A stretch of DNA of 39,243 bases. It comes from an uncultured Flavobacteriales bacterium (lineage in GTDB: Bacteria; Bacteroidota; Bacteroidia; Flavobacteriales_D; Sanyastnellaceae). Positions 27,172-39,243 of this stretch are shown in pieces. Under the pieces are notes generated by a model. That model worked only from the letters and a program-made list of their open reading frames with translations, searched no databases and was not told where the DNA came from. Position numbers and translations under genes: made by a program. The number at the start of each line of letters is the position of its first letter. Positions within the stretch are counted from its first letter, which is position 1. The stretch is taken from the NCBI GenBank assembly GCA_938082505.1, contig CALLLH010000024.1, positions 77,983-117,225 of the forward strand. Reading direction: 5' to 3'.

Positions 27172-28257
27172 ATGGCTGAAGGCAACACCTTCCTTGTTTC
27201 GGCGCGAAAATACCGCCCGACCACATGGGAAACCGTGGTGGGGCAGCAGAGCATTACGGATACGCTGCGCCACAGCATTGCCTCAGGGCAGATTGCGCAG
27301 GCTTATCTGTTCTGTGGTCCCCGGGGCGTGGGCAAAACCACGTGTGCCCGGATCTTCGCCAACGCCATCAACGGGTTCACGGCGGAGCAGGCGGAGAGGA
27401 GCTTCAACGTCTTCGAACTGGATGCGGCTTCCAACAATGGCGTGGAGAACATCCGGAGCATCATCGACCAGGTGCGCATTCCACCGCAGGATGGAGACTA
27501 CAAGGTCTACGTCATCGACGAGGTGCACATGCTGTCAAAGGATGCGTTCAACGCCTTCCTCAAGACGCTGGAGGAACCGCCCAAGCATGCTGTTTTCATT
27601 CTGGCCACCACGGAGAAGCACAAGATCCTGCCGACGATCCTGTCCCGTTGCCAGATTTACGACTTCCGCCGGATCACCACCAGGGACATCGCGGAGCACC
27701 TCGCCTTCGTCGCCGGAAAGGAGGGGGTGCATGCCGAGGCGGAAGCTTTGAATGTCATCGCCCAAAGGGCGGATGGCGCGATGCGGGACGCGCTGAGCAT
27801 TTTCGACCAGATGGTCGCTTCCAGTGCGGAAGGGGTCACGTATGAAGCGGTCACCCGGCACCTGAACGTGTTGGGTCATGACGTCTACTTCTCGATTGTG
27901 GATGCGGCATTGACAGGACGCATCGGTGACATGCTGCTCCAATTGGAGGAAGTCGTGGCGGCGGGATTCGATGCCCATCACTTTGTCACGGGGCTTGGAC
28001 AGCACTTGCGCAACCTGATGGTCTGCAAGGACGAATCGACCTTGGCGCTCATGGAAGCAGGAGAATCGGTCGTGGACCGATTCGGCGACCAAGCCAAACG
28101 CTGCGGTCTGCACTTCCTCGTCGCGGCCATCGGCCATTCGAATGAGGCCGACCAACAATACAGGCTGTCCCGACATCCGAGGCTGCTCGTCGAATTGATG
28201 CTGATGCGCATCGGCTCCCTCGAAGCGGTCAGCGCAGAGGGGGCAAAAAAAAAATGA
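27172..28257 (+). CDS. dnaX: DNA polymerase III subunit gamma (and tau N-terminal part)
   Basis: The clamp-loader ATPase of the replisome. This 361-residue frame has the AAA+ domains: FCGPRGVGKTTCARIF (Walker A, about 49-56), DEVHML (116-121), ATTEKHKILPTILSRC (sensor 1 and the SRC arginine-finger region), GAMRDALSIFDQM (sensor 2 region), and domain III to the end. The zinc-binding cysteine cluster that usually follows Walker A is absent: INGFTAEQAERSFNVFELDAASNN is shorter and Cys-free, which I recall for other Flavobacteria. The frame ends GAKKK-stop in a run of ten A residues; the tau continuation is open in the +1 frame. Either slippage makes both gamma and tau, or the A-run length is wrong in the assembly. 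Confidence 0.93.
   Translation: MAEGNTFLVSARKYRPTTWETVVGQQSITDTLRHSIASGQIAQAYLFCGPRGVGKTTCARIFANAINGFTAEQAERSFNVFELDAASNNGVENIRSIIDQVRIPPQDGDYKVYVIDEVHMLSKDAFNAFLKTLEEPPKHAVFILATTEKHKILPTILSRCQIYDFRRITTRDIAEHLAFVAGKEGVHAEAEALNVIAQRADGAMRDALSIFDQMVASSAEGVTYEAVTRHLNVLGHDVYFSIVDAALTGRIGDMLLQLEEVVAAGFDAHHFVTGLGQHLRNLMVCKDESTLALMEAGESVVDRFGDQAKRCGLHFLVAAIGHSNEADQQYRLSRHPRLLVELMLMRIGSLEAVSAEGAKKK
28245..28254 (+). other. A10 slippery run at the gamma/tau junction of dnaX
   Basis: Ten consecutive A residues lie directly before the TGA of the gamma frame. Loss of one A (or gain of two) in the transcript gives GCA AAA AAA AAT GAG CTG and continues into the downstream frame. A -1 ribosomal shift would instead hit a stop after Met-Ser, so transcriptional slippage or an assembly error fits better than E. 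coli-type -1 frameshifting. Confidence 0.7.
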
Positions 28258-29056
28258 GCTGATTCCGATTTCGGGTTGGGACGTTCCCCTCGACGGGGAA
28301 GGCACCATCGTTTCTGTGAACCGCGCGCGGTCACCAGAAGCGTCCAAGGCCGAGGAGCAACCTGCATCTTCTGGGCAAGCGGCTGTTTCCTCGGAGTCCG
28401 GCTCGGATGCAGGGCCGGAAGAATCCCTGGAAAGGGGCGGGGAATTGGTGCGCCCACCGGTGTCCGTGCCGGCCGCTGCAGGACCGGAACCGGAGGGAGA
28501 AAAGCCCCAGGCAGTCCATGAGGAGCTGGACGCCGATTTGGCGGCCACCTTGGGCAGGCCGAAGCAGACGGCGGTGCCCACAGGGAAATTGGGGTCGCTG
28601 CTTTCTGGGAAAAGCATGTTCGCAACGCAGATGGAGGACAAGACCTCCTCCGAAGTGGGCGAGCTGGACCTTGAGCACACCACCACATTGAAATCGGCCT
28701 ACGATGAATCCAAGGTGAGGCTGGCCTGGGACGCGTTGGTGGAGGAAATGCGCAAACGGAACAAAATGGGGCTGGCAGCCACACTCGCCACCGGCGACTT
28801 GCATTTCGAAGACCCCTTGCTCAAACTCAAGGTGGCCAATCAGGTGCAATTCGATGAGTTGAAGGAGAACGCCACAGAGCTGTTGCACTTCATCAGGGTC
28901 ACGGTGGGCAACGGTGCGATTGCATTCGAGGTGGAGGTGGCGGAGGAAGCTCCTGCCGCGGAATTCCTGACTGCCAAGGATCGATACCTGCGTTGGGCGG
29001 AGCAGAAACCGGAATTGGAAACCATGCGCAAGCGGCTCGACCTCGATTTAGGTTGA
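28253..29056 (+). CDS. dnaX: DNA polymerase III tau C-terminal extension
   Basis: Open from the A-run in the +1 frame relative to gamma and reading NELIPISGWDVPLDGEG, then a Pro/Ala/Glu-rich linker (about 28330-28560) and a folded C-terminal domain (SAYDESKVRLAWDALVEEMRKRN, LAATLATGDLHFEDPLLKLKV, YLRWAEQKPELETMRKRLDL), as in the tau tails of Bacteroidota DnaX. There is no start codon with family support near the frame start; GTG 28316 would remove the junction. Joined to gamma with one A deleted, the product is 627 residues, a usual DnaX length. Tau tethers the polymerase to the clamp loader and helicase. Confidence 0.85.
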   Translation, partial: NELIPISGWDVPLDGEGTIVSVNRARSPEASKAEEQPASSGQAAVSSESGSDAGPEESLERGGELVRPPVSVPAAAGPEPEGEKPQAVHEELDADLAATLGRPKQTAVPTGKLGSLLSGKSMFATQMEDKTSSEVGELDLEHTTTLKSAYDESKVRLAWDALVEEMRKRNKMGLAATLATGDLHFEDPLLKLKVANQVQFDELKENATELLHFIRVTVGNGAIAFEVEVAEEAPAAEFLTAKDRYLRWAEQKPELETMRKRLDLDLG

Positions 29057-29139: not shown

Positions 29140-31551
29140 GTGAAAGCATCGCGAAGGTCCATTTCGATGCTCGGTTTGCTGCTGCTCTGTGGGGTCGTCC
29201 AGGCCCAAACGGCCAGTGTGCGTGGTGTGGTCGCGGATGAGGTCACAGGGATGCCGCTGCCTTTCGTTTCGGTGGTGGTGCAGGGCACGGCCACGGGCGT
29301 GTCGACCGACCTCGATGGGGCATTCGAGCTCACGGGGTTGGCACCTGGTCTTGTCAACCTGGCCTTCAGTTCCATCGGGTACCAGTCTACCACCCGGCTG
29401 GAGATTGAGATTACCCCTGCACGGTCGGCGTTCATCAATGTGGACATGGCGCCCCTCTCCGTGGCCATGGAGGCAGCGGAAGTCGAAGCGACAACGGCCC
29501 GTGGAGAGGAGGAGGCCCCGGTGTCGCTGAGACGGATCGGGACCAATGAGATCAAACGGAATCCGGGAGGAGGTCGGGACATCTCCAAAGCCATCCGCAG
29601 TCTTCCCGGAGTGGCGGCCATTCCAAGCTTCAGGAATGATATCGTGATCCGGGGAGGAGCGCCCAATGAGAACCGGTTCTACATCGATGGGATCGAAATC
29701 CCGAACATCAATCACTTTGCCACGCAGGGAGCGAGCGGAGGTCCGGTGGGCATGATCAACGTAGACCTGGTTGAGGAAGTGGAATTTTATTCCGGAGCCT
29801 TCCCGGCCACAAGGGGCAACGCGCTGTCAAGCGTCATGGAATTCGGTTTCAAGACGGCGCGGACGGATGAATGGACTTCGAACGCCGTGGTGGGCACAAG
29901 TGACCTGGGATTGACCTTCGAAGGCCCCACAGGTGAAAACAGCTCGCTCATCCTGAGCGCAAGGCGCAGTTATCTGCAATTCCTGTTTGAAGTGTTGGGG
30001 CTGCCGTTCCTACCTGTTTATAATGACATCCAGTTCAAATGGGTCCACCAGCCGTCCCCCAATGAAAGGCTGACCGTACTCGGCATCGGGGCGTATGACG
30101 ATTTCCAGCTCAACCTCTCGGCTGCCGATGACACGTCGGCTGAGGATTATCTGGACCAGGTGGCGATCCTGGATGCCCTTCAGGTCAACAAGCAGTGGAA
30201 CTACACCGTTGGCGCGACGTATGACCGCTTCACCGAGGATGGGCGTTGGACATGGGTAGCGAGCCGCAACATGCTGAGCAACCGGGCCTACAAGCATCTT
30301 GACAACGACGAGGCGCTGCCGCTCACCCTCGATTACCTCTCGCAGGAGATGGAGAACAAGCTTCGAATGGAGCGCAGGAGATACGGCGCAGAGGGGTTCA
30401 AGGTCACGTGGGGAGGCCAATATGAGTTCGCGCGTTTCAACAACCGCACGTTCAGCGAGCGATACCTTTTTCTGCAGGACACGCTCATCGAGGTTGATTT
30501 CGAGAGCGCATTCGACCTGCACAAATACGGAGCCTTCATCCAGGCCTCCAAGCCGATGGCGGATGGAAGGATGACCCTGAGTGGCGGGCTCAGGGTGGAC
30601 GGCAATGAGGTCAATGAGGCCATGGCCAATCCCCTGCGGCAGCTGAGCCCGAGGGTGGCGTTCCGATGGAACCTGGCGCCCCGATTGAGCTTGAACGCCA
30701 ATGTGGGACGCTATTTCCAGTTGCCCAGTTACCTCATTCTCGGTTTCGAGGAGCAGGGACAACGCGTCAATCGGGAAGGCGCGCGCTACCAGCGTTGCGA
30801 CCAGGCTGTCCTCGGTCTTCGCTATGATTGGCCGGAGCGGAACACCACCCTCGGTCTGGAAGGGTTCATGAAAGGCTACGACCAAGCGCCCATCAGCGTG
30901 GAAACAGGCATAGCGCTGGCGAATCTCGGCGCCGATTTCGGAGTGGTGGGCAACGAAGCTGTACGCTTTGATGGCAAGGGCAGGGCCCGGGGAGTGGAAT
31001 TCCTGGCGCAGCGCAAACTGTACAAAGGGGTGTATGGTCTGCTCGCCTACACTTATGTCAGGAGTGAATACAGCTTCCTCGAGGGATACGCTCCCAGCGC
31101 CTGGGACAGCCGGCACATCGTGTCGCTGACAGGGGGCGCGAAGTTGAAGCGGGATTGGGAGGTCGGTGTGCGTTGGTTGTACAGCGGAGGGCTCCCTTAC
31201 ACACCGTACGACCTCGATGTCAGCCTGGATCGGGTGTACTGGGACAGCAACAGTGTCCCCCAACTGGATTATGCCCAATTGAATGCCATGCGGAATGCCT
31301 CCTTCAGTCAATTGGACCTTCGCATCGACAAGAAGTGGTTCTTCGATCGTTGGAGCCTCGACGTATTCATGGATGTGCAGAATTTGCTCAGTCAGGTCCC
31401 CGATGCTCCTCCGGCTTTGGACGTCGTGCGTGATCTCAATACTGGAGCTCCTGTTCCGGACGCAGCCAATCCATCACGCTATCAGGCGCGTTATATACCG
31501 CTGAGTTCAGGAACGGTGATTCCGGCAATCGGGTTGATTGTCGAACTTTGA
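29140..31551 (+). CDS. TonB-dependent outer-membrane receptor
   Basis: An 803-residue outer-membrane transporter driven by TonB. A signal peptide (n-region KASRRSIS, core MLGLLLLCGVV, cut after QAQ) is best served by GTG 29140; ATG 29167 is the alternative but leaves no basic n-region. A carboxypeptidase-like regulatory domain follows at about 24-105 (VRGVVADEVTGMPLPFVSVVV, DLDGAFELTGL, IGYQST), then the plug (about 120-235, RDISKAIRSLPGVAAI, DIVIRGGAPNENRFYIDGIEIPN split by NHF, VEFYSGAFPATRGN), then a beta-barrel to the terminal LIVEL. It is not of the SusC type and no SusD partner is present. The substrate is unknown. S4-domain gene follows after 3 bases. Confidence 0.92.
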   Translation: MKASRRSISMLGLLLLCGVVQAQTASVRGVVADEVTGMPLPFVSVVVQGTATGVSTDLDGAFELTGLAPGLVNLAFSSIGYQSTTRLEIEITPARSAFINVDMAPLSVAMEAAEVEATTARGEEEAPVSLRRIGTNEIKRNPGGGRDISKAIRSLPGVAAIPSFRNDIVIRGGAPNENRFYIDGIEIPNINHFATQGASGGPVGMINVDLVEEVEFYSGAFPATRGNALSSVMEFGFKTARTDEWTSNAVVGTSDLGLTFEGPTGENSSLILSARRSYLQFLFEVLGLPFLPVYNDIQFKWVHQPSPNERLTVLGIGAYDDFQLNLSAADDTSAEDYLDQVAILDALQVNKQWNYTVGATYDRFTEDGRWTWVASRNMLSNRAYKHLDNDEALPLTLDYLSQEMENKLRMERRRYGAEGFKVTWGGQYEFARFNNRTFSERYLFLQDTLIEVDFESAFDLHKYGAFIQASKPMADGRMTLSGGLRVDGNEVNEAMANPLRQLSPRVAFRWNLAPRLSLNANVGRYFQLPSYLILGFEEQGQRVNREGARYQRCDQAVLGLRYDWPERNTTLGLEGFMKGYDQAPISVETGIALANLGADFGVVGNEAVRFDGKGRARGVEFLAQRKLYKGVYGLLAYTYVRSEYSFLEGYAPSAWDSRHIVSLTGGAKLKRDWEVGVRWLYSGGLPYTPYDLDVSLDRVYWDSNSVPQLDYAQLNAMRNASFSQLDLRIDKKWFFDRWSLDVFMDVQNLLSQVPDAPPALDVVRDLNTGAPVPDAANPSRYQARYIPLSSGTVIPAIGLIVEL

Positions 31552-32564: not shown

Positions 32565-35500
32565 ATGTCTTACCAGAAGTCTGTCGCGCTTCTCAGCTGC
32601 CTCTTCACTTTTTCGGTCATCACCATGACCGGCGCAGCGCATCCGGAAAACGGACCCTTCCTCCCAGGGGGAAATCCGACCACCGAAGTGGGTTCGTCCC
32701 GCTCTGTCGGTGATCCTTCCAGCGCTCTCCTGCTGAATGCACTTTTTGTCGCACCACCGGACACCACGCCTCCCGTCATCACCATCACCATGCCGGATGA
32801 TGTTTTCCTTACGGGTTGCTATTCCGATTTCACCTACTCCCAAGCTGCCATGGGCAAGCCGCACATCGTGGTCTTCGATGAGTGCGGAGGGGTGACCGTG
32901 ACCGACATTTGGTCGGATTCCTTCGATTATTGTGCCTCCACCGATGATGGATCTCCGGAAGGTGGTCTCGTGATCACACGGCAATTCGTGGTCACGGCAA
33001 CGGACTGTTTTGGCAATGTTGCGGCGGATACGGTATACCAGGCCATTACGGTGACCGATGCTGGTGCCCCGACCTTCGTTGAGGCCCTTCCCGCCGATAC
33101 AACCGTGGATTGTGGCGCGATCCCAACGGCTGTGACCCTCACTGCGACGGACGACTGCGATACCGACGTCACGGTGACCTATACAGAAGATGCGACGACG
33201 ACCTGTGCTGGCCTTGTGCGCACCTGGGTGGCCGTGGACGATTGCGGCAACACCACGACCCACGTTCAGAACATTACGGTTACCGACACTGAGAATCCCG
33301 TGATTGCCGATACCCCTTCGGACATCGCGCAGAACAACGACAGCGGCAACTGCAGTGCGGTGGTCACCTGGACCGAACCTACGGCCAGTGACAACTGCAC
33401 CTTGGACACCTTCGTCTCCACCCACGCTCCCGGCGACACTTTTTCAGTGGGTGCGACGACGGTGACCTACACAGCAACGGACGACTGCGGCAACACGACC
33501 ACGTCGAGCTTCACGGTGACCATCGCGGATGCCGAGGATCCGACCATCACCGCTACGCCTGCGGACATCACCCAGACCAATGACGCCGGCCTTTGTTCGG
33601 CCGTTGTGAACTGGACACCCCCGACCGATGCGGACAATTGTTCGTCCACGATGACGTCCACGCACGATTCGGGCGACGTCTTCCCCGTCGGCACGACGAC
33701 GGTCACCTACACCGCCACCGACCCAGCCGGCAACACGGTCTCCACCTCCTTCACCGTCACCGTCACCGACGACGAACTCCCGGTGATTTCAAATATGCAG
33801 GCAGACCAAAGTTTCCCTACCAATGCCTCCTCTTGTACGAAATACTTCACATGGCCAAGTCCTTCGGCAGCTGACAATTGCGGTGTGGACACTATTACAG
33901 CTACGCACAACGAAGGAGGGTCCACATTCTCAATTGGGGATACCGAGGTTACTTACACGGCAACTGACATTCATGGCAACACCGCCACGTCTTCATTTAC
34001 CATTACGGTTTATGACGCTGAGAATCCGGTGATTTCAGGGATGCCGGCGGACATCACGCAGACCGCCGATGCGGATACGTGTGGGGCGGTGGTGAATTGG
34101 ACGGATCCGACTGCCACGGATAACTGTACAGTAGATACGTTCTCGGCTGACTACAACAGTGGGGATTTCTTCCCGCTGGGGACGACCACGGTGACCTACA
34201 CGGCGGTTGACTCGACCGGCAACTCGACCACGGCGTCGTTTGACATTACGATTACCGATGATGAGGCGCCGAGCATCAGTGGCACGCCGGCCGACCTTAC
34301 GCAGAGCACTGATGGTGCTTCGTGCGATGCGGTGGTGTCTTGGACGGCACCCACTGCCGACGACAATTGTGCGCTCGCGAGTTTGACCGCGGACTACAGC
34401 AGTGGCGATACGTTCCCCTTGGGTACGACGACCGTGACCTACACGGCCACCGATGCGGCGGGCAATACGACGACGAGCACGTTCACCATTACGATCACGG
34501 ACACTGAGGATCCGACCATTTCCGGTACCCCGGCCGACATCACCCAGACTGCTGATGCGGGCAACTGTTCTGCTGCAGTGAATTGGACAGCACCGGCCGC
34601 GGCGGACAACTGCAGTGTTTCCACATTGACCTCGACCCACAGCATTGGGGATACGTTCCCCGTGGGTACCACGACGGTGACCTATACCGCAACGGACAAT
34701 GCGGGCAATACGAGCACCACGAGTTTCACGGTGACCGTGACGGACAATGAGGATCCGACCATCACGGGCATGCCTGCCAACATCACGCAGACGGCCGATG
34801 CCGGCAACTGCTCGGCAGTGGTGAGTTGGACGGAACCCACGAGCTCCGACAATTGTGCGGTAGACACGTTCACGTCCAACCACAACAGCGGGGACGCTTT
34901 CCCCGTCGGGGCGACGACGGTGACCTACACTTCCACGGACATCCACGGCAATGTGACCACGTCTTCCTTCACGGTGACGGTGACCGATAACGAAGTGCCG
35001 ACCATCAGTGGCATGCCGGCTGACATTTCTCAGGACACCGACGCCGGGGTCTGCTTGGCAGAGGTGACGTGGACAGCTCCGACAGCGGATGACAACTGCA
35101 GCGTTGCCTCATTGACATCGGACCATGAGCCGGGTGACGATTTCACGCCGGGCACCACGACGGTAACCTATACCGCTACGGACATCCATGGCAATGTCAC
35201 GACGGCCAGCTTCACGGTGACCGTGACCGATGCGGAGGCCCCCTCCATTTCGGGCATGCCTGCCGACATCAGTCTCAACGCTGTGGCCGCAGGGGACACC
35301 TGCTCGGCTGCGGCCAGCTGGACGGCTCCAACGGCATCCGACAACTGTGCGGTGACCAGTTTCACATCCACTCATAATAGTGGTGACAGTTTCGGAACGG
35401 GCACCACCACGGTAACGTATACAGCCATGGACGCCGCGGGCAACACCACGACCGCCACGTTCACGGTGACCGTGACCGACAATGACGCGCCTTCCATTTC

Positions 35501-38500
35501 GGGAATGCCGGGCAACATCACCCAGTCCAACGATGCGGGCAGCTGCGCTGCAGCCGTGACTTGGACCGAGCCGACCATGTCGGACAATTGCGGTGCGACC
35601 TTGACCTCGACCCACGATCCGGGCGTCATGTTTGGAGTGGGTACGACGACCGTGATCTACACGGCTGTTGATGAAGCGGGCAACACAACCACAGCTTCGT
35701 TCAACGTGCAGGTACAGGACACCGAGAACCCGACCATCACTTCCATGCCGGCCGACATCACCGTCGATACGGATGCCGGAGTGTGCACGGCTGTGGTGAC
35801 CTGGACTGAGCCGAACGCTCAGGACAACTGCGCCGTGAGCACGTTCACTTCATCGCATTCCTCCGGGGACACTTTCTCCCTCGGCACGACGGCAGTGACT
35901 TACACCGCCACCGACATCCACGGCAACACGGCCACCTCATCCTTCAACGTTGCAGTGCAGGACAATGAGGCCCCGACCATTTCTGGTGTGCCGTCAGACA
36001 TCACGCAGAACACGGATTCGGGTGTGTGCACGGCTGACGTGAACTGGGTCGTGCCTACCGGTGCAGACAACTGCACCCTGGCCTCATTGACTTCCAATTT
36101 CGCCTCCGGAGACACATTCGGACTCGGCCCCAATACGGTGACCTACACCGCGACGGATGGGGCGGGCAATGTCACGACGGCTTCCTTCACGGTGACCGTC
36201 ATCGATGTGGCCGTACCTACCATTTCGGGCATGCCGACGGACATTACCCAGTCCATGGATCCCGGCAGCTGCAGTGCGACCGTGACCTGGACGGAGCCCA
36301 CCGCGGATGACAACTGCTCCGTCTCGTCGTTTACGAGCAGCCACAATTCAAATTCCACTTTCACGAGCGGAACGACGACGGTGACCTACACCGCCATGGA
36401 CCCCTCCGGCAATACGGCCTCCGCCACCTTCACGGTGACGGTGAACGATACGGAGAATCCGACCATCTCGGGAACACCGGCGAACATCACGCAGTCCAAC
36501 GATGCCGGCATATGTGCCGCTGCGGTGAGTTGGGCCGCCCCGAGCGCTTTGGACAACTGTGGTGCGACCTTGACTTCGAGCCACACCAGTGGATCCACTT
36601 TCGGGGTGGGAACGACAACGGTGATACTTACCGCCACCGACGAGGCGGCCAACACGGCGACCACGAGCTTCACGGTGACCGTGACGGACAATGAGGCGCC
36701 TTACTTCACGACATTGGCGAACGATACCGTATCCACGGATCCGGGAACTTGCGATGCCGTGGTCAATTTTGCCGATCCCGGTGCTGCGGACAACTGTTCC
36801 GTGGCCAGTGTGACTTCCGACATCGCTTCGGGCACCACCTTCAGCCTCGGCTCCACGACCGTGACCTACACGGTGACCGACATCTATGGCAACTCGGCGA
36901 CCGGTGCGTTCGAGGTCGTAGTCGAGGATAACGAGGGCCCAACCATCACTTCTGCGGCACAGGACGCCTCGGTTGAATGCGACGGTGCAGGCAACTCGGC
37001 CGCACTGTTGGCCTGGTTGGACAACAACGCAGGGGCTGCGGCTACGGACAATTGCAGTGGCGTGACCTGGTCCAATGATTTCACGACCATGGCGGCCAGT
37101 TGCGGAGGCAGCGGGGCGGTTCAGGTCGTCTTCACCGCGACGGATGATGCGGGCAATCAGACCTCCACGGCGGCCATCTTCACCATTGTGGACACCACGG
37201 CGCCGACCCTGACGGCCGCGGCCCAGGATACCACGACGGAGTGCGATGGATCCGGGAATGCCGCCGAACTCGCGGCATGGTTGGCCAACAATGGTGGTGC
37301 GTCCGCCAGCGAGACCTGCAGTGGCGTGACCTGGAGCCACAACTACGGCAATGGAGCGTCTCTGAGCAACCTCTGTGGTGCGACCGGCACAGTGACGGTG
37401 ACCTTCACCGCTGAGGACGCCTGTGGCAACAACGTCACCACGAACGGCACGTTCACGATCACGGACACCACGAATCCGACGGCTGTGGCCAAGGATTACA
37501 CCGTGACCTTGGATGCCAACGGTGTGGGCATCATGACGGCTTCCGACATTGACAACGCTTCTTCCGATGGCTGTGGAACCGTATCCTTGGCTGCGAGCCA
37601 GACGACCTTCTCCTGCTCGGATCTCGGAGCCAACACCATCACACTGACCGTCACCGACGAATGCAGCAACACGGCAACAGCCACTGCTACGGTCACGGTG
37701 GTCGACACCACCGATCCGACCATGACGGTGACGGCATCCGATGCCACATACGAATGCACGGGTGGTGCCTTCACCTCTGAATTCAATGACTGGATCACCA
37801 GCAACGGTGGTGCCTCCGCCACGGACGCCTGTGGCTCCCTGACCTGGTCCAACAACAGCACGGGCCTCTCCGACGGCTGCGGTGCTACCGGCAGCGAGAC
37901 CGTGACCTTCACGGTGACAGACGGCAGCGGTAACTCCACGAGCACCACGGCGACGTTCTCCATCACGGACACGACGGCCCCGACCATTGCCAGCGATGCC
38001 ACGGACATCACGCTCGAGTGCGACGGTTCGAACGATCTCATCGGCCTCAATGCCTGGCTGCTCGCCAATGGCGGTGCGGGTGCGGTAAGTGATGCCTGCG
38101 GTAGCGTCACCTGGAGCCACAACTTCCATGACTACGGTTTGTCCTGCATCGGAACGGGTGCCATCGACGTGACCTTCACGGCCACGGACGAGTGCGGCAA
38201 TACCGCCACGACGATGGGCAGCTTCACAATCGTGGACACGACGGCGCCTGTGCTGTCTGCCACGGCTTCGGATACCACCATTGAGTGCAGTGCCGGTACT
38301 GGTGTGGAAATCGCTTCCTGGCTCGCCAACCACGGTGGCGCTGCAGCGGCGGACCTCTGCGGCAACACGACTTGGACGCACGATTACGCCGGCCTGTCCG
38401 ACCTGTGCGGCAATACCGGTACTGCGACGGTGATTTTCACCGCAACCGACGATTGTGGCAACTTCACGACGAGCACGGCCACCGTGACCGTGGAGGACAA

Positions 38501-39243
38501 CACTTCGCCAATCGCCCTCGGTCAGGATGTCACGGTAACCCTGGATGGAACCGGCCTTGCCAACATCACGGCGAACGACATCGACAATGGCTCCTATGAC
38601 GATTGCGGCAACGTGACCTTGTCCATCGACGTCACCTCCTTTGATTGTGACGATGTAGGTTCGAATGCCGTCACTTTGACGGTGACGGACGAGTGCCAAA
38701 ACGCATCTTCCGCCACGGTAATCGTGACGGTGACGGCAGTGGACGATGCCTCACCGACCATTTCCAATGTGCCGGCCAACATCACCCAGACCAACGATGC
38801 AGGAGATTGCAGCGCTGTGGTGACCTACACCATGCCGAGCATTGCAGACAACTGCGATGGCGGTTCCATCGTCAGCTCACACCCGAGCGGTTCAACCTTC
38901 CCGGTCGGTGCCACGGAAGTGATCTTCACGGCCACCGACCCGAGCGGAAACGACACCACGGCCACCTTCACGGTGACCGTCACCGACGATGAGGCCCCGA
39001 CCTTCAGCGGACCGGCTCCGGATCCGTCTGATGAGGACTACGCCCTCGGACCGATCTCCAACTCCGGAGCCTCCACCATCCAGGAGGAATGGTCCGGTGG
39101 TGACGGAACCTACTTCACGAACGACGGCACCGATGACGAGGCCGTCACCGATGCCGAGGCCAACTCCGGAAGCAACAGCTGGTTCTACACCGACGCCTAC
39201 AACAACCCGGGTTCGGGTTCGCCCCACACGCCTGATCTGGGCT
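32565..39243 (+). CDS. Giant secreted HYR-repeat protein (partial, 3' end outside window)
   Basis: At least 2226 residues, open to the right edge. ATG 32565 gives a signal peptide (MSYQKSVALLSCLFTFSVI…, cut near GAA/HP, about residue 24). Two atypical Ig-like modules follow (about 67-165, 166-241), then fifteen tandem HYR repeats (242-1455), two ECDG…AWL-type repeats (1456-1634), a shorter YTVTLDANG-type module (1635-1714), three more ECDG-type repeats (1715-1978), another short module (1979-2060), a sixteenth HYR repeat (2061-2141), and the start of a different domain with EEWSGGDGTYFTNDG and SNSWFYTDAYN, resembling a jelly-roll. HYR modules are Ig-like adhesion repeats, each with a Cys pair. 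A surface adhesin or gliding-type filament secreted by T9SS is likely, but the C-terminus is not visible. Confidence 0.9.
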   Translation, partial: MSYQKSVALLSCLFTFSVITMTGAAHPENGPFLPGGNPTTEVGSSRSVGDPSSALLLNALFVAPPDTTPPVITITMPDDVFLTGCYSDFTYSQAAMGKPHIVVFDECGGVTVTDIWSDSFDYCASTDDGSPEGGLVITRQFVVTATDCFGNVAADTVYQAITVTDAGAPTFVEALPADTTVDCGAIPTAVTLTATDDCDTDVTVTYTEDATTTCAGLVRTWVAVDDCGNTTTHVQNITVTDTENPVIADTPSDIAQNNDSGNCSAVVTWTEPTASDNCTLDTFVSTHAPGDTFSVGATTVTYTATDDCGNTTTSSFTVTIADAEDPTITATPADITQTNDAGLCSAVVNWTPPTDADNCSSTMTSTHDSGDVFPVGTTTVTYTATDPAGNTVSTSFTVTVTDDELPVISNMQADQSFPTNASSCTKYFTWPSPSAADNCGVDTITATHNEGGSTFSIGDTEVTYTATDIHGNTATSSFTITVYDAENPVISGMPADITQTADADTCGAVVNWTDPTATDNCTVDTFSADYNSGDFFPLGTTTVTYTAVDSTGNSTTASFDITITDDEAPSISGTPADLTQSTDGASCDAVVSWTAPTADDNCALASLTADYSSGDTFPLGTTTVTYTATDAAGNTTTSTFTITITDTEDPTISGTPADITQTADAGNCSAAVNWTAPAAADNCSVSTLTSTHSIGDTFPVGTTTVTYTATDNAGNTSTTSFTVTVTDNEDPTITGMPANITQTADAGNCSAVVSWTEPTSSDNCAVDTFTSNHNSGDAFPVGATTVTYTSTDIHGNVTTSSFTVTVTDNEVPTISGMPADISQDTDAGVCLAEVTWTAPTADDNCSVASLTSDHEPGDDFTPGTTTVTYTATDIHGNVTTASFTVTVTDAEAPSISGMPADISLNAVAAGDTCSAAASWTAPTASDNCAVTSFTSTHNSGDSFGTGTTTVTYTAMDAAGNTTTATFTVTVTDNDAPSISGMPGNITQSNDAGSCAAAVTWTEPTMSDNCGATLTSTHDPGVMFGVGTTTVIYTAVDEAGNTTTASFNVQVQDTENPTITSMPADITVDTDAGVCTAVVTWTEPNAQDNCAVSTFTSSHSSGDTFSLGTTAVTYTATDIHGNTATSSFNVAVQDNEAPTISGVPSDITQNTDSGVCTADVNWVVPTGADNCTLASLTSNFASGDTFGLGPNTVTYTATDGAGNVTTASFTVTVIDVAVPTISGMPTDITQSMDPGSCSATVTWTEPTADDNCSVSSFTSSHNSNSTFTSGTTTVTYTAMDPSGNTASATFTVTVNDTENPTISGTPANITQSNDAGICAAAVSWAAPSALDNCGATLTSSHTSGSTFGVGTTTVILTATDEAANTATTSFTVTVTDNEAPYFTTLANDTVSTDPGTCDAVVNFADPGAADNCSVASVTSDIASGTTFSLGSTTVTYTVTDIYGNSATGAFEVVVEDNEGPTITSAAQDASVECDGAGNSAALLAWLDNNAGAAATDNCSGVTWSNDFTTMAASCGGSGAVQVVFTATDDAGNQTSTAAIFTIVDTTAPTLTAAAQDTTTECDGSGNAAELAAWLANNGGASASETCSGVTWSHNYGNGASLSNLCGATGTVTVTFTAEDACGNNVTTNGTFTITDTTNPTAVAKDYTVTLDANGVGIMTASDIDNASSDGCGTVSLAASQTTFSCSDLGANTITLTVTDECSNTATATATVTVVDTTDPTMTVTASDATYECTGGAFTSEFNDWITSNGGASATDACGSLTWSNNSTGLSDGCGATGSETVTFTVTDGSGNSTSTTATFSITDTTAPTIASDATDITLECDGSNDLIGLNAWLLANGGAGAVSDACGSVTWSHNFHDYGLSCIGTGAIDVTFTATDECGNTATTMGSFTIVDTTAPVLSATASDTTIECSAGTGVEIASWLANHGGAAAADLCGNTTWTHDYAGLSDLCGNTGTATVIFTATDDCGNFTTSTATVTVEDNTSPIALGQDVTVTLDGTGLANITANDIDNGSYDDCGNVTLSIDVTSFDCDDVGSNAVTLTVTDECQNASSATVIVTVTAVDDASPTISNVPANITQTNDAGDCSAVVTYTMPSIADNCDGGSIVSSHPSGSTFPVGATEVIFTATDPSGNDTTATFTVTVTDDEAPTFSGPAPDPSDEDYALGPISNSGASTIQEEWSGGDGTYFTNDGTDDEAVTDAEANSGSNSWFYTDAYNNPGSGSPHTPDLG
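33288..36929 (+). repeat. Fifteen tandem HYR-encoding repeats, about 243 bp each
   Basis: Repeat starts read from the translation: 33288, 33531, 33771, 34017, 34260, 34503, 34746, 34989, 35232, 35481, 35721, 35964, 36207, 36450, 36690. The consensus begins (N/T/D)E-x-PTISGMPADITQ, has a Cys in DAGxC, DNC about 17 residues later, GTTTVTYTATD and ends SFTVTVTD. Spacing is 240-249 bases. Repeats are clearly related but diverged at the DNA level. Confidence 0.9.
36930..38744 (+). repeat. Second block: five ECDG/AWL-type repeats and two short modules
   Basis: About 88-residue repeats starting at 36930, 37194, 37707, 37971 and 38238 share TTAPT…(V/T/L)EC(D/T)G…AWLxNNGGA…CG…TWSHN…FTATD.CGN. Two about 80-residue modules at 37467 and 38499 share VTLD(A/G)xG…ITA.DIDN.S.D.CG. 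These classes alternate in the order B-B-C-B-B-B-C before a last HYR repeat at 38745. Confidence 0.8.

Follow-up and report, generated by a model that had tools for sequence, protein, structure and literature searches.

A widely conserved A-run at the gamma/tau border of dnaX in Bacteroidota as a probable site of programmed transcriptional slippage

In the dnaX gene of an uncultured Flavobacteriales bacterium, located in a 39,243-nucleotide stretch of contig CALLLH010000024.1 (hereafter, the window), the DNA frame encodes gamma and stops right after a run of exactly ten A, and the frame of tau opens right behind the run. Judging by its anatomy and by its relatives, the gene is likely expressed via programmed transcriptional slippage giving a mixture of gamma and tau; the long DnaX is probably made by RNA polymerase slipping on the run and not by straight read-through. 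The sequence comparison also favors, with less confidence, a broader view: across much of Bacteroidota, the gamma:tau ratio would be set by slippage on one deeply conserved run, with the frame being almost neutral and flipped among the three phases dozens of times, so that tau would never be contiguous in the DNA of whole genera.

The features of the junction are collected in Table 1. The gamma frame ends as GCA AAA AAA AAA TGA, i.e., GAKKK-stop with the stop next to the A10; the tau frame is open straight after the run, from a GAG to the stop at 29054-29056, in +1 relative to the gamma frame; and in an A9 version of the gene the two frames are joined into (1882-1)/3 = 627 codons. All this is in line with the preliminary description of this DNA, made from the sequence alone, which had also placed the split exactly at the gamma/tau boundary. 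The latter point is borne out by the NCBIfam model of DnaX, NF011531, which matches the gamma frame with its positions 3-368 of 614 and the tau frame with positions 416-613, thereby locating the A10 at the border of the two parts. Taken alone, each frame scores under the whole-protein cut-off of this model (685), and the match of TIGR02397 to the gamma frame reaches 379 bits (cut-off 250). The Pfam model of DnaX domain III, for which one match was found in the window genome, scored 24.0 in one search and 25.7 in another (cut-off 24.4). The best-scoring solved structures for the gamma frame are E. coli gamma/tau chains. If the run had eleven A, the frame would read ATG AGC TGA and stop after two codons. 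The non-tau frames end at 0 and 2 codons after the run.

Table 1. Features of the dnaX junction, with positions in the window
Feature	Position	Strand	Evidence
dnaX gamma frame (AAA+ domain, lid, domain III; 361 aa; no recoding needed)	27172..28257	+	ORF, TIGR02397, NF011531
A10 slippery run (A of GCA + AAA AAA AAA); predicted transcriptional realignment site	28245..28254	+	Sequence, relatives
Gamma stop TGA, directly after the run	28255..28257	+	Sequence; TGA 15/16, TAA 1/16 in the genus
Second short exit: A11 would give ATG AGC TGA, another gamma-sized product	28254..28262	+	Sequence, frame stops
Tau tail, +1 frame, 266 aa + stop: variable linker, then conserved C-terminal domain	28256..29056	+	NF011531 416-613/614, E 2.6e-13; codon-position divergence
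Predicted folded C-terminal domain of tau (helices + three strands)	28670..29053	+	AlphaFold2
GAGGGGG, Shine-Dalgarno-like, 1 nt upstream of the run; putative role	28237..28243	+	Predicted anti-SD duplex -11.1 kcal/mol

This A10 is the sole A- or T-run of eight or more in the 39 kb of the window and one of two exact A10 runs in the 2.45 Mb genome, both strands counted, where 0.25 would be expected from the base composition of the window. A search in 17 genomes of the window's genus recovered the junction in 16; the remaining genome, 78% complete, gave weak paralogue matches only. The comparison of sister genomes at the run, suggested as a check in the preliminary description, revealed exactly ten A in all 16 junctions, followed by TGA in 15 and by TAA in one, and such an identity puts the run beyond chance. 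Tau lies at +1 in 13 of them (in 12 by profile and in one, L014, whose phase was taken as +1 once an N gap had been considered); the contigs of the other three break off shortly behind the run. Hence, the split of dnaX was observed correctly and represents no assembly error.

Beyond the genus, 241 dnaX loci were classified. Two of them (L115, L116) end before the junction, and the count of 237 distinct loci omits these two along with the duplicates L117 and L234. The sample is uneven: 99 junction-holding loci come from the window's family (114 genomes searched, 102 with a match), the named loci represent the top 80 among at least 592, and a further 60 loci were hand-picked among the matches listed (20 each from other families of the order, from other orders of the class, and from the part of the phylum outside the class). 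For genes without the run, “junction” means merely the longest A-run within a 330-nt stretch.

Runs of A9-A12 are present at the junction in 194 of the 237 distinct loci (A10 in 155, A11 in 25, A9 in 12, and A12 in two), namely in 98/99 loci of the family, 18/19 of the order, 18/20 of the class, 4/20 from outside the class, and 56/79 of the named set. Sorted by NCBI order, the named loci bear the run in Flavobacteriales (32/32), Sphingobacteriales (4/4), Cytophagales (2/2), and Marinilabiliales (2/2), in 10/31 Bacteroidales, and in 6/8 loci with no order given; all ten named loci of Bacteroidaceae/Prevotellaceae (L121, L145, L150, L157, L166, L167, L179, L185, L190, L192) are without it. As a control, A9 or longer was found in none of the 702 upstream 330-nt windows and in four of the 451 downstream 300-nt windows of the same loci. 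The 98 run-bearing junctions of the family all have A10 or more (A10 in 84, A11 in 13, A12 in one). Its sole exception, L111 (G019:C8), shows A8 and A7 with the frame broken nearby, and in both of its genus mates the run is A10 and tau is in frame; L111 can be read either as a degraded gene or as poor sequence. The junction of L117, titled Flavobacteriales bacterium MOX_bin5, is the same as that of one genome (G008) of the window's genus. Since cultured species of Flavobacterium and Pedobacter in the sample bear the run, slippage is directly testable.

The codon comparison indicates that the run is maintained at the level of bases. In 14 species with the full gamma part, with codons counted back from the run without gaps, all eight invariant Lys columns of gamma mix AAA and AAG, and 89 of the 91 two-fold columns whose residue is invariant show synonymous variation. 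The AAA AAA AAA of the run and the preceding A are unchanged in 16/16 same-genus genomes, the first A being supplied by GCA in 15 and by ACA in one. In ten frames of the window, GCA makes up 13% of the Ala codons and AAA 30% of the Lys codons.

Behind the run, the pattern of divergence is that of a constrained coding frame. In 13 same-genus tau tails, divergence at codon positions 1/2/3 amounts to 0.37/0.28/0.61 across the final 165 columns of the alignment, with the linker being looser than the C-terminal part. The AlphaFold2 model of the C-terminal domain (72-row alignment, window positions 28559-29053) has a mean pLDDT of 84.7, with 112 of the 165 residues at 90 or higher. A Foldseek search with this model gave no match at E <= 0.001 (the best, SirA, at 0.049), and a profile search of solved chains with the domain returned three weak unrelated matches (E 0.039 to 0.088). 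In view of this, the identity of tau rests on NF011531 and on the profile built from 139 single-frame genes.

The phase of tau relative to the run is variable. Among the 194 run-bearing loci, tau is in frame in 109, at -1 in 51, and at +1 in 29, with no phase assigned in five. The earlier statement that dnaX of Bacteroidota is usually one frame fails in this sample, weighted as it is to the window's family: 80 of the 189 phase-assigned run-bearing loci are split. Within the family, tau is in the DNA frame in genera g2 (two loci), g8-g12, g14, g19-g21, and most of g18; -1 is needed in g3, g4, g5, g13, g15, g16, and g17; and +1 is needed in the window's genus g1, in g6 (A11), in g7, and in one genome of g18. 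In g6 (L057, L061, and others), A11 goes with +1, and the one genome with A12 is at -1, as one extra A would give. In Flavobacterium, A10 places tau at -1, and A9 (strain YO12) places it at +1 (L135 beside L133 and L136). Close relatives one A apart thus flip phase, as if the run length were tolerated both ways, and the first A of the run can fall on codon position 1, 2, or 3, depending on the locus. In the FastTree tree of 239 gamma parts, at least 31 changes of phase and 14 of run presence are required, and at least eight changes of phase in the family tree (the phase states omit L111, L164, L180, and L232); these are quick trees whose changes cannot be given a direction, so they do not tell the ancestry of the run.

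If slippage makes gamma, both non-tau frames are expected to end soon after the run. In the single-frame run-bearing loci, both stop within six codons in 85/104 and within ten codons in 98/104, compared with 515/4160 and 1013/4160 in-frame random positions of the same genes. The split loci display the same feature (72/80 within ten codons, 78/80 within 20). In the single-frame loci without the run, paired stops occur in 3/37 (six codons) and 6/37 (ten codons), with 92/1480 and 213/1480 in their controls. These counts omit the loci cut by a contig end, include L234 (single-frame) and L117 (split), and, the loci being related, are not independent trials. The lack of paired early stops suggests that the single-frame genes without the run, including those of Bacteroidaceae/Prevotellaceae, make tau only or make gamma in another way.

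A mechanism can be proposed that would account for this anatomy. RNA polymerase passing over ten T in the template would release mRNAs differing in the number of A. The unslipped A10 mRNA would yield gamma (361 aa), and the A11 mRNA a near-identical short form ending in KKKMS; the loss of one A (A9), as well as A12, would join the frames and yield tau of 627 or 628 aa, respectively. One gene would then supply both clamp-loader subunits at a ratio set by slippage. Since all three frames would arise from a template of any length, the frame in the DNA would be nearly free to drift, and selection would act on the run and on the early stops of the two non-tau frames but not on the phase. We infer the transcriptional nature of the slip, its efficiency, and the production of both proteins from these sequence patterns. 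If this is true, tau in these bacteria depends on an error of a polymerase, and what was supposed to be an assembly error becomes a test case for obligatory recoding. Another implication is that dnaX may be annotated as truncated or frameshifted in sound genomes.

The choice between transcription and translation is aided by the passages of Antonov et al. 2013 (PMC3711429) stating that genes with ribosomal frameshifting keep one direction of the shift and those with transcriptional realignment need not. Given that 51 loci require -1 and 29 require +1, and that the run may start at any codon position, dnaX sides with transcriptional realignment. Three phases on one conserved run represent, in effect, a natural experiment opposing transcriptional slippage to ribosomal frameshifting. 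According to the parts of PMC6260861 on this subject, bacterial RNA polymerase requires long A-runs, insertions and deletions are cited on A10 and A11, and the reports quoted there disagree on which of the two predominate on long A-runs. The dnaX of the window requires the loss of one A or the gain of two for tau.

Slippage on the A-run, for which the preliminary description referred to Thermus thermophilus, stands as the best-supported mechanism; its polarity turned out to be reversed, as the DNA of the window encodes gamma, and it is tau that needs the slip. In T. thermophilus (Larsen et al. 2000, as presented in PMC1088944 and PMC5009743), dnaX has a run of A9, its DNA frame encodes tau, and gamma arises by slippage. 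Common to both genes, as far as these accounts go, are an A-run of at least nine at the gamma/tau border and near stops in both non-tau frames; in Thermus, the two products come from mRNAs of mixed run length, as proposed for the window. The two differ in that the window has A10 with gamma in the DNA frame. The Thermus-type arrangement with tau in the DNA frame, absent from the window, is present in 109 run-bearing relatives.

The closest precedent is the set of 17 split dnaX genes in Antonov et al. 2013 (PMC3711429), all at -1, nine of them with A10, for which slippage was proposed. Like the window, these genes have, in the passages concerned, gamma in the DNA frame with a stop at the poly-A site and tau open in another frame. 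Unlike them, the window and its genus need +1, the -1 relatives belonging to other genera, so the window is set apart as a variant and not a member of that cluster. Moreover, the passages of that paper on dnaX cover split genes, whereas here single-frame relatives bear the run, too. In Blochmannia (PMC3017870), a frame break in an A tract of dnaX is thought to be rescued by slippage. In that gene, it is the tau-only part that is broken, at a point downstream of the slip site of the E. coli type, whereas the break of the window is at the gamma/tau border; the window belongs to a GC-rich genome with the break kept across the genus, in contrast to the insect endosymbiont. Atkins et al. 2016 note, in the part on dnaX, that one nucleotide can reverse the roles of gamma and tau.

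In a literature search covering mostly titles and the starts of abstracts, with subscription papers thinly represented, dnaX genes needing recoding for tau came up in Antonov et al. 2013 and in the review by Atkins et al. 2016 only. Within the same scope, no report was found of a +1 form or of a run common to split and single-frame genes of Bacteroidota; some of the nine A10 species of Antonov et al. may belong to Bacteroidota. Thus, judging from the passages on dnaX in PMC3711429, a split dnaX with A10 needing recoding for tau is already known, and what is new here is the +1 direction across a genus and the broad conservation of a run whose phase is free.

The main rival of transcriptional slippage is programmed ribosomal frameshifting, which we consider rather unlikely. 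In this case, the ribosome would shift +1 from AAA to AAU at AAA-UGA, or slide on the run, aided by GAGGGGG, to enter the tau frame. Several features of the window's genus speak for it: UGA comes straight after the run in 15/16 genomes, the predicted SD-like pairing amounts to -10.0 to -11.2 kcal/mol in 10 of the 13 tested loci (-7.7 in one and -6.2 in the two most distant), and the predicted fold of the 60 nt behind the run is somewhat more stable than that of controls (-20.8 vs. -15.7 kcal/mol; mean rank 2.4 of 12). Of the synonymous redraws, about 90% are weaker than the SD-like site of the window; for the 11 +1 loci sampled, the mean rank is 0.32. Atkins et al. 2016, in their account of reversed dnaX genes, describe them under ribosomal frameshifting. 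Since ribosomes, too, are reported to slide on AAA runs (PMC4363877), part of the recoding could take place at the level of translation with the same anatomy.

Still, a +1 slip requires just the last AAA and the stop, not A10, and both the direction and the codon phase of the run differ among the relatives, unlike the ribosomal cases in the data presented by Antonov et al. No extra downstream folding was found in the groups outside the window's genus, and Flavobacterium johnsoniae is reported, in the part of PMC12421855 concerned, to be poor at frameshifting on the prfB motif. The strength of the SD-like site mostly follows the encoded residues: in the synonymous-redraw test over 115 junctions, the mean rank was 0.41 vs. 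0.47 at control positions (one-sample t p 0.001; against control positions p 0.054), and the GAGGGGG of the window is largely accounted for by its Glu-Gly residues. An SD-like excess is present in the other groups, too (-4.8 vs. -2.1 and -2.5). A G-rich SD-like stretch before the run (28230-28244 in the window; 117 sampled loci) recurs across families and codon phases above the codon-position background. Most of this stretch, perhaps not all, is explained by the residues encoded there.

The SD of prfB lies about 3 nt before the P-site codon. The window does have the stop expected for a prfB-type +1 shift, but about 8-11 nt separate its SD-like site from the P-site codon. A prfB-like shift was kept as the main rival owing to GAGGGGG. 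The control with synonymous codons and the mixed phases weaken it. The -1 shift of the E. coli type was rejected on account of the frame. In E. coli, tau is in the DNA frame, and -1 ribosomal frameshifting takes place on the A_AAA_AAG heptamer of dnaX. The window shares with it the gene, the two products, and a purine-rich SD-like sequence upstream; the downstream fold is moderately over control in the genus, not in other groups. The differences are that no G follows the run and that -1 gives just KKKMS-stop, the frame ending after Met-Ser (ATG AGC TGA), as the preliminary description, which held such a shift unworkable, had noticed.

It is highly improbable that gamma and the tau tail are two separate proteins, with gamma ending at the run and the tail translated alone by re-initiation. 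Gamma is indeed complete as it is, and the run overlaps an ATGA, but this ATG belongs to the third frame, which closes after Met-Ser, the distance from the run down to the first ATG/GTG/TTG in the tau frame ranges from 5 to 57 codons among the 16 genomes with no common place, and the A10 of single-frame relatives would be left unexplained.

Variation of the run length between cells at the DNA level, or a decaying gene in which tau is lost, is just as improbable. Long A-runs mutate readily, and both A11 and A12 occur in genus g6. On the other hand, the run is ten in 16/16 junctions of the window's genus, the tau frame bears codon-position constraint there, and the genome has just one match to DnaX domain III. 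Tau couples the polymerases at the fork and is expected to be needed.

The least probable explanation is the homopolymer-length error that the preliminary description had set against the split, with a true genome of A9 and dnaX in one frame: the window genome is a 60-contig draft and A10 an error-prone kind of site, but the stop comes directly after A10 in 16/16 same-genus junctions, A9-A12 recurs in 194 of the 237 distinct loci, and other lineages, including the one-contig genomes G063 and G435 (both -1, A10), are split in the opposite direction. The genus yielded no sister genome in which the frame is uninterrupted and the run absent; other genera of the family have uninterrupted frames yet keep the run.

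The other exact A10 of the window genome is on the start codon of carB, coding for the large subunit of carbamoyl-phosphate synthase (L197, G000:C44:42478-42489, minus strand; NF003671 at 745 bits for L197 only). The A10-TG context at carB is present in 12 of the 17 genomes of the genus (L197-L201, L203, L204, L207, L208, L209, L212, L213), possibly as a second use of slippage or as an A-rich initiation site. In the window itself, the next gene on the same strand (29143-31551) codes for a TonB-dependent receptor with a carboxypeptidase-regulatory-like N-terminal domain. Further on, a giant ORF made of HYR repeats (16 stretches pass singly) occupies positions 32565-39243; it comprises at least 2226 aa, is still open where the window ends, and probably encodes a surface or secreted repeat protein.
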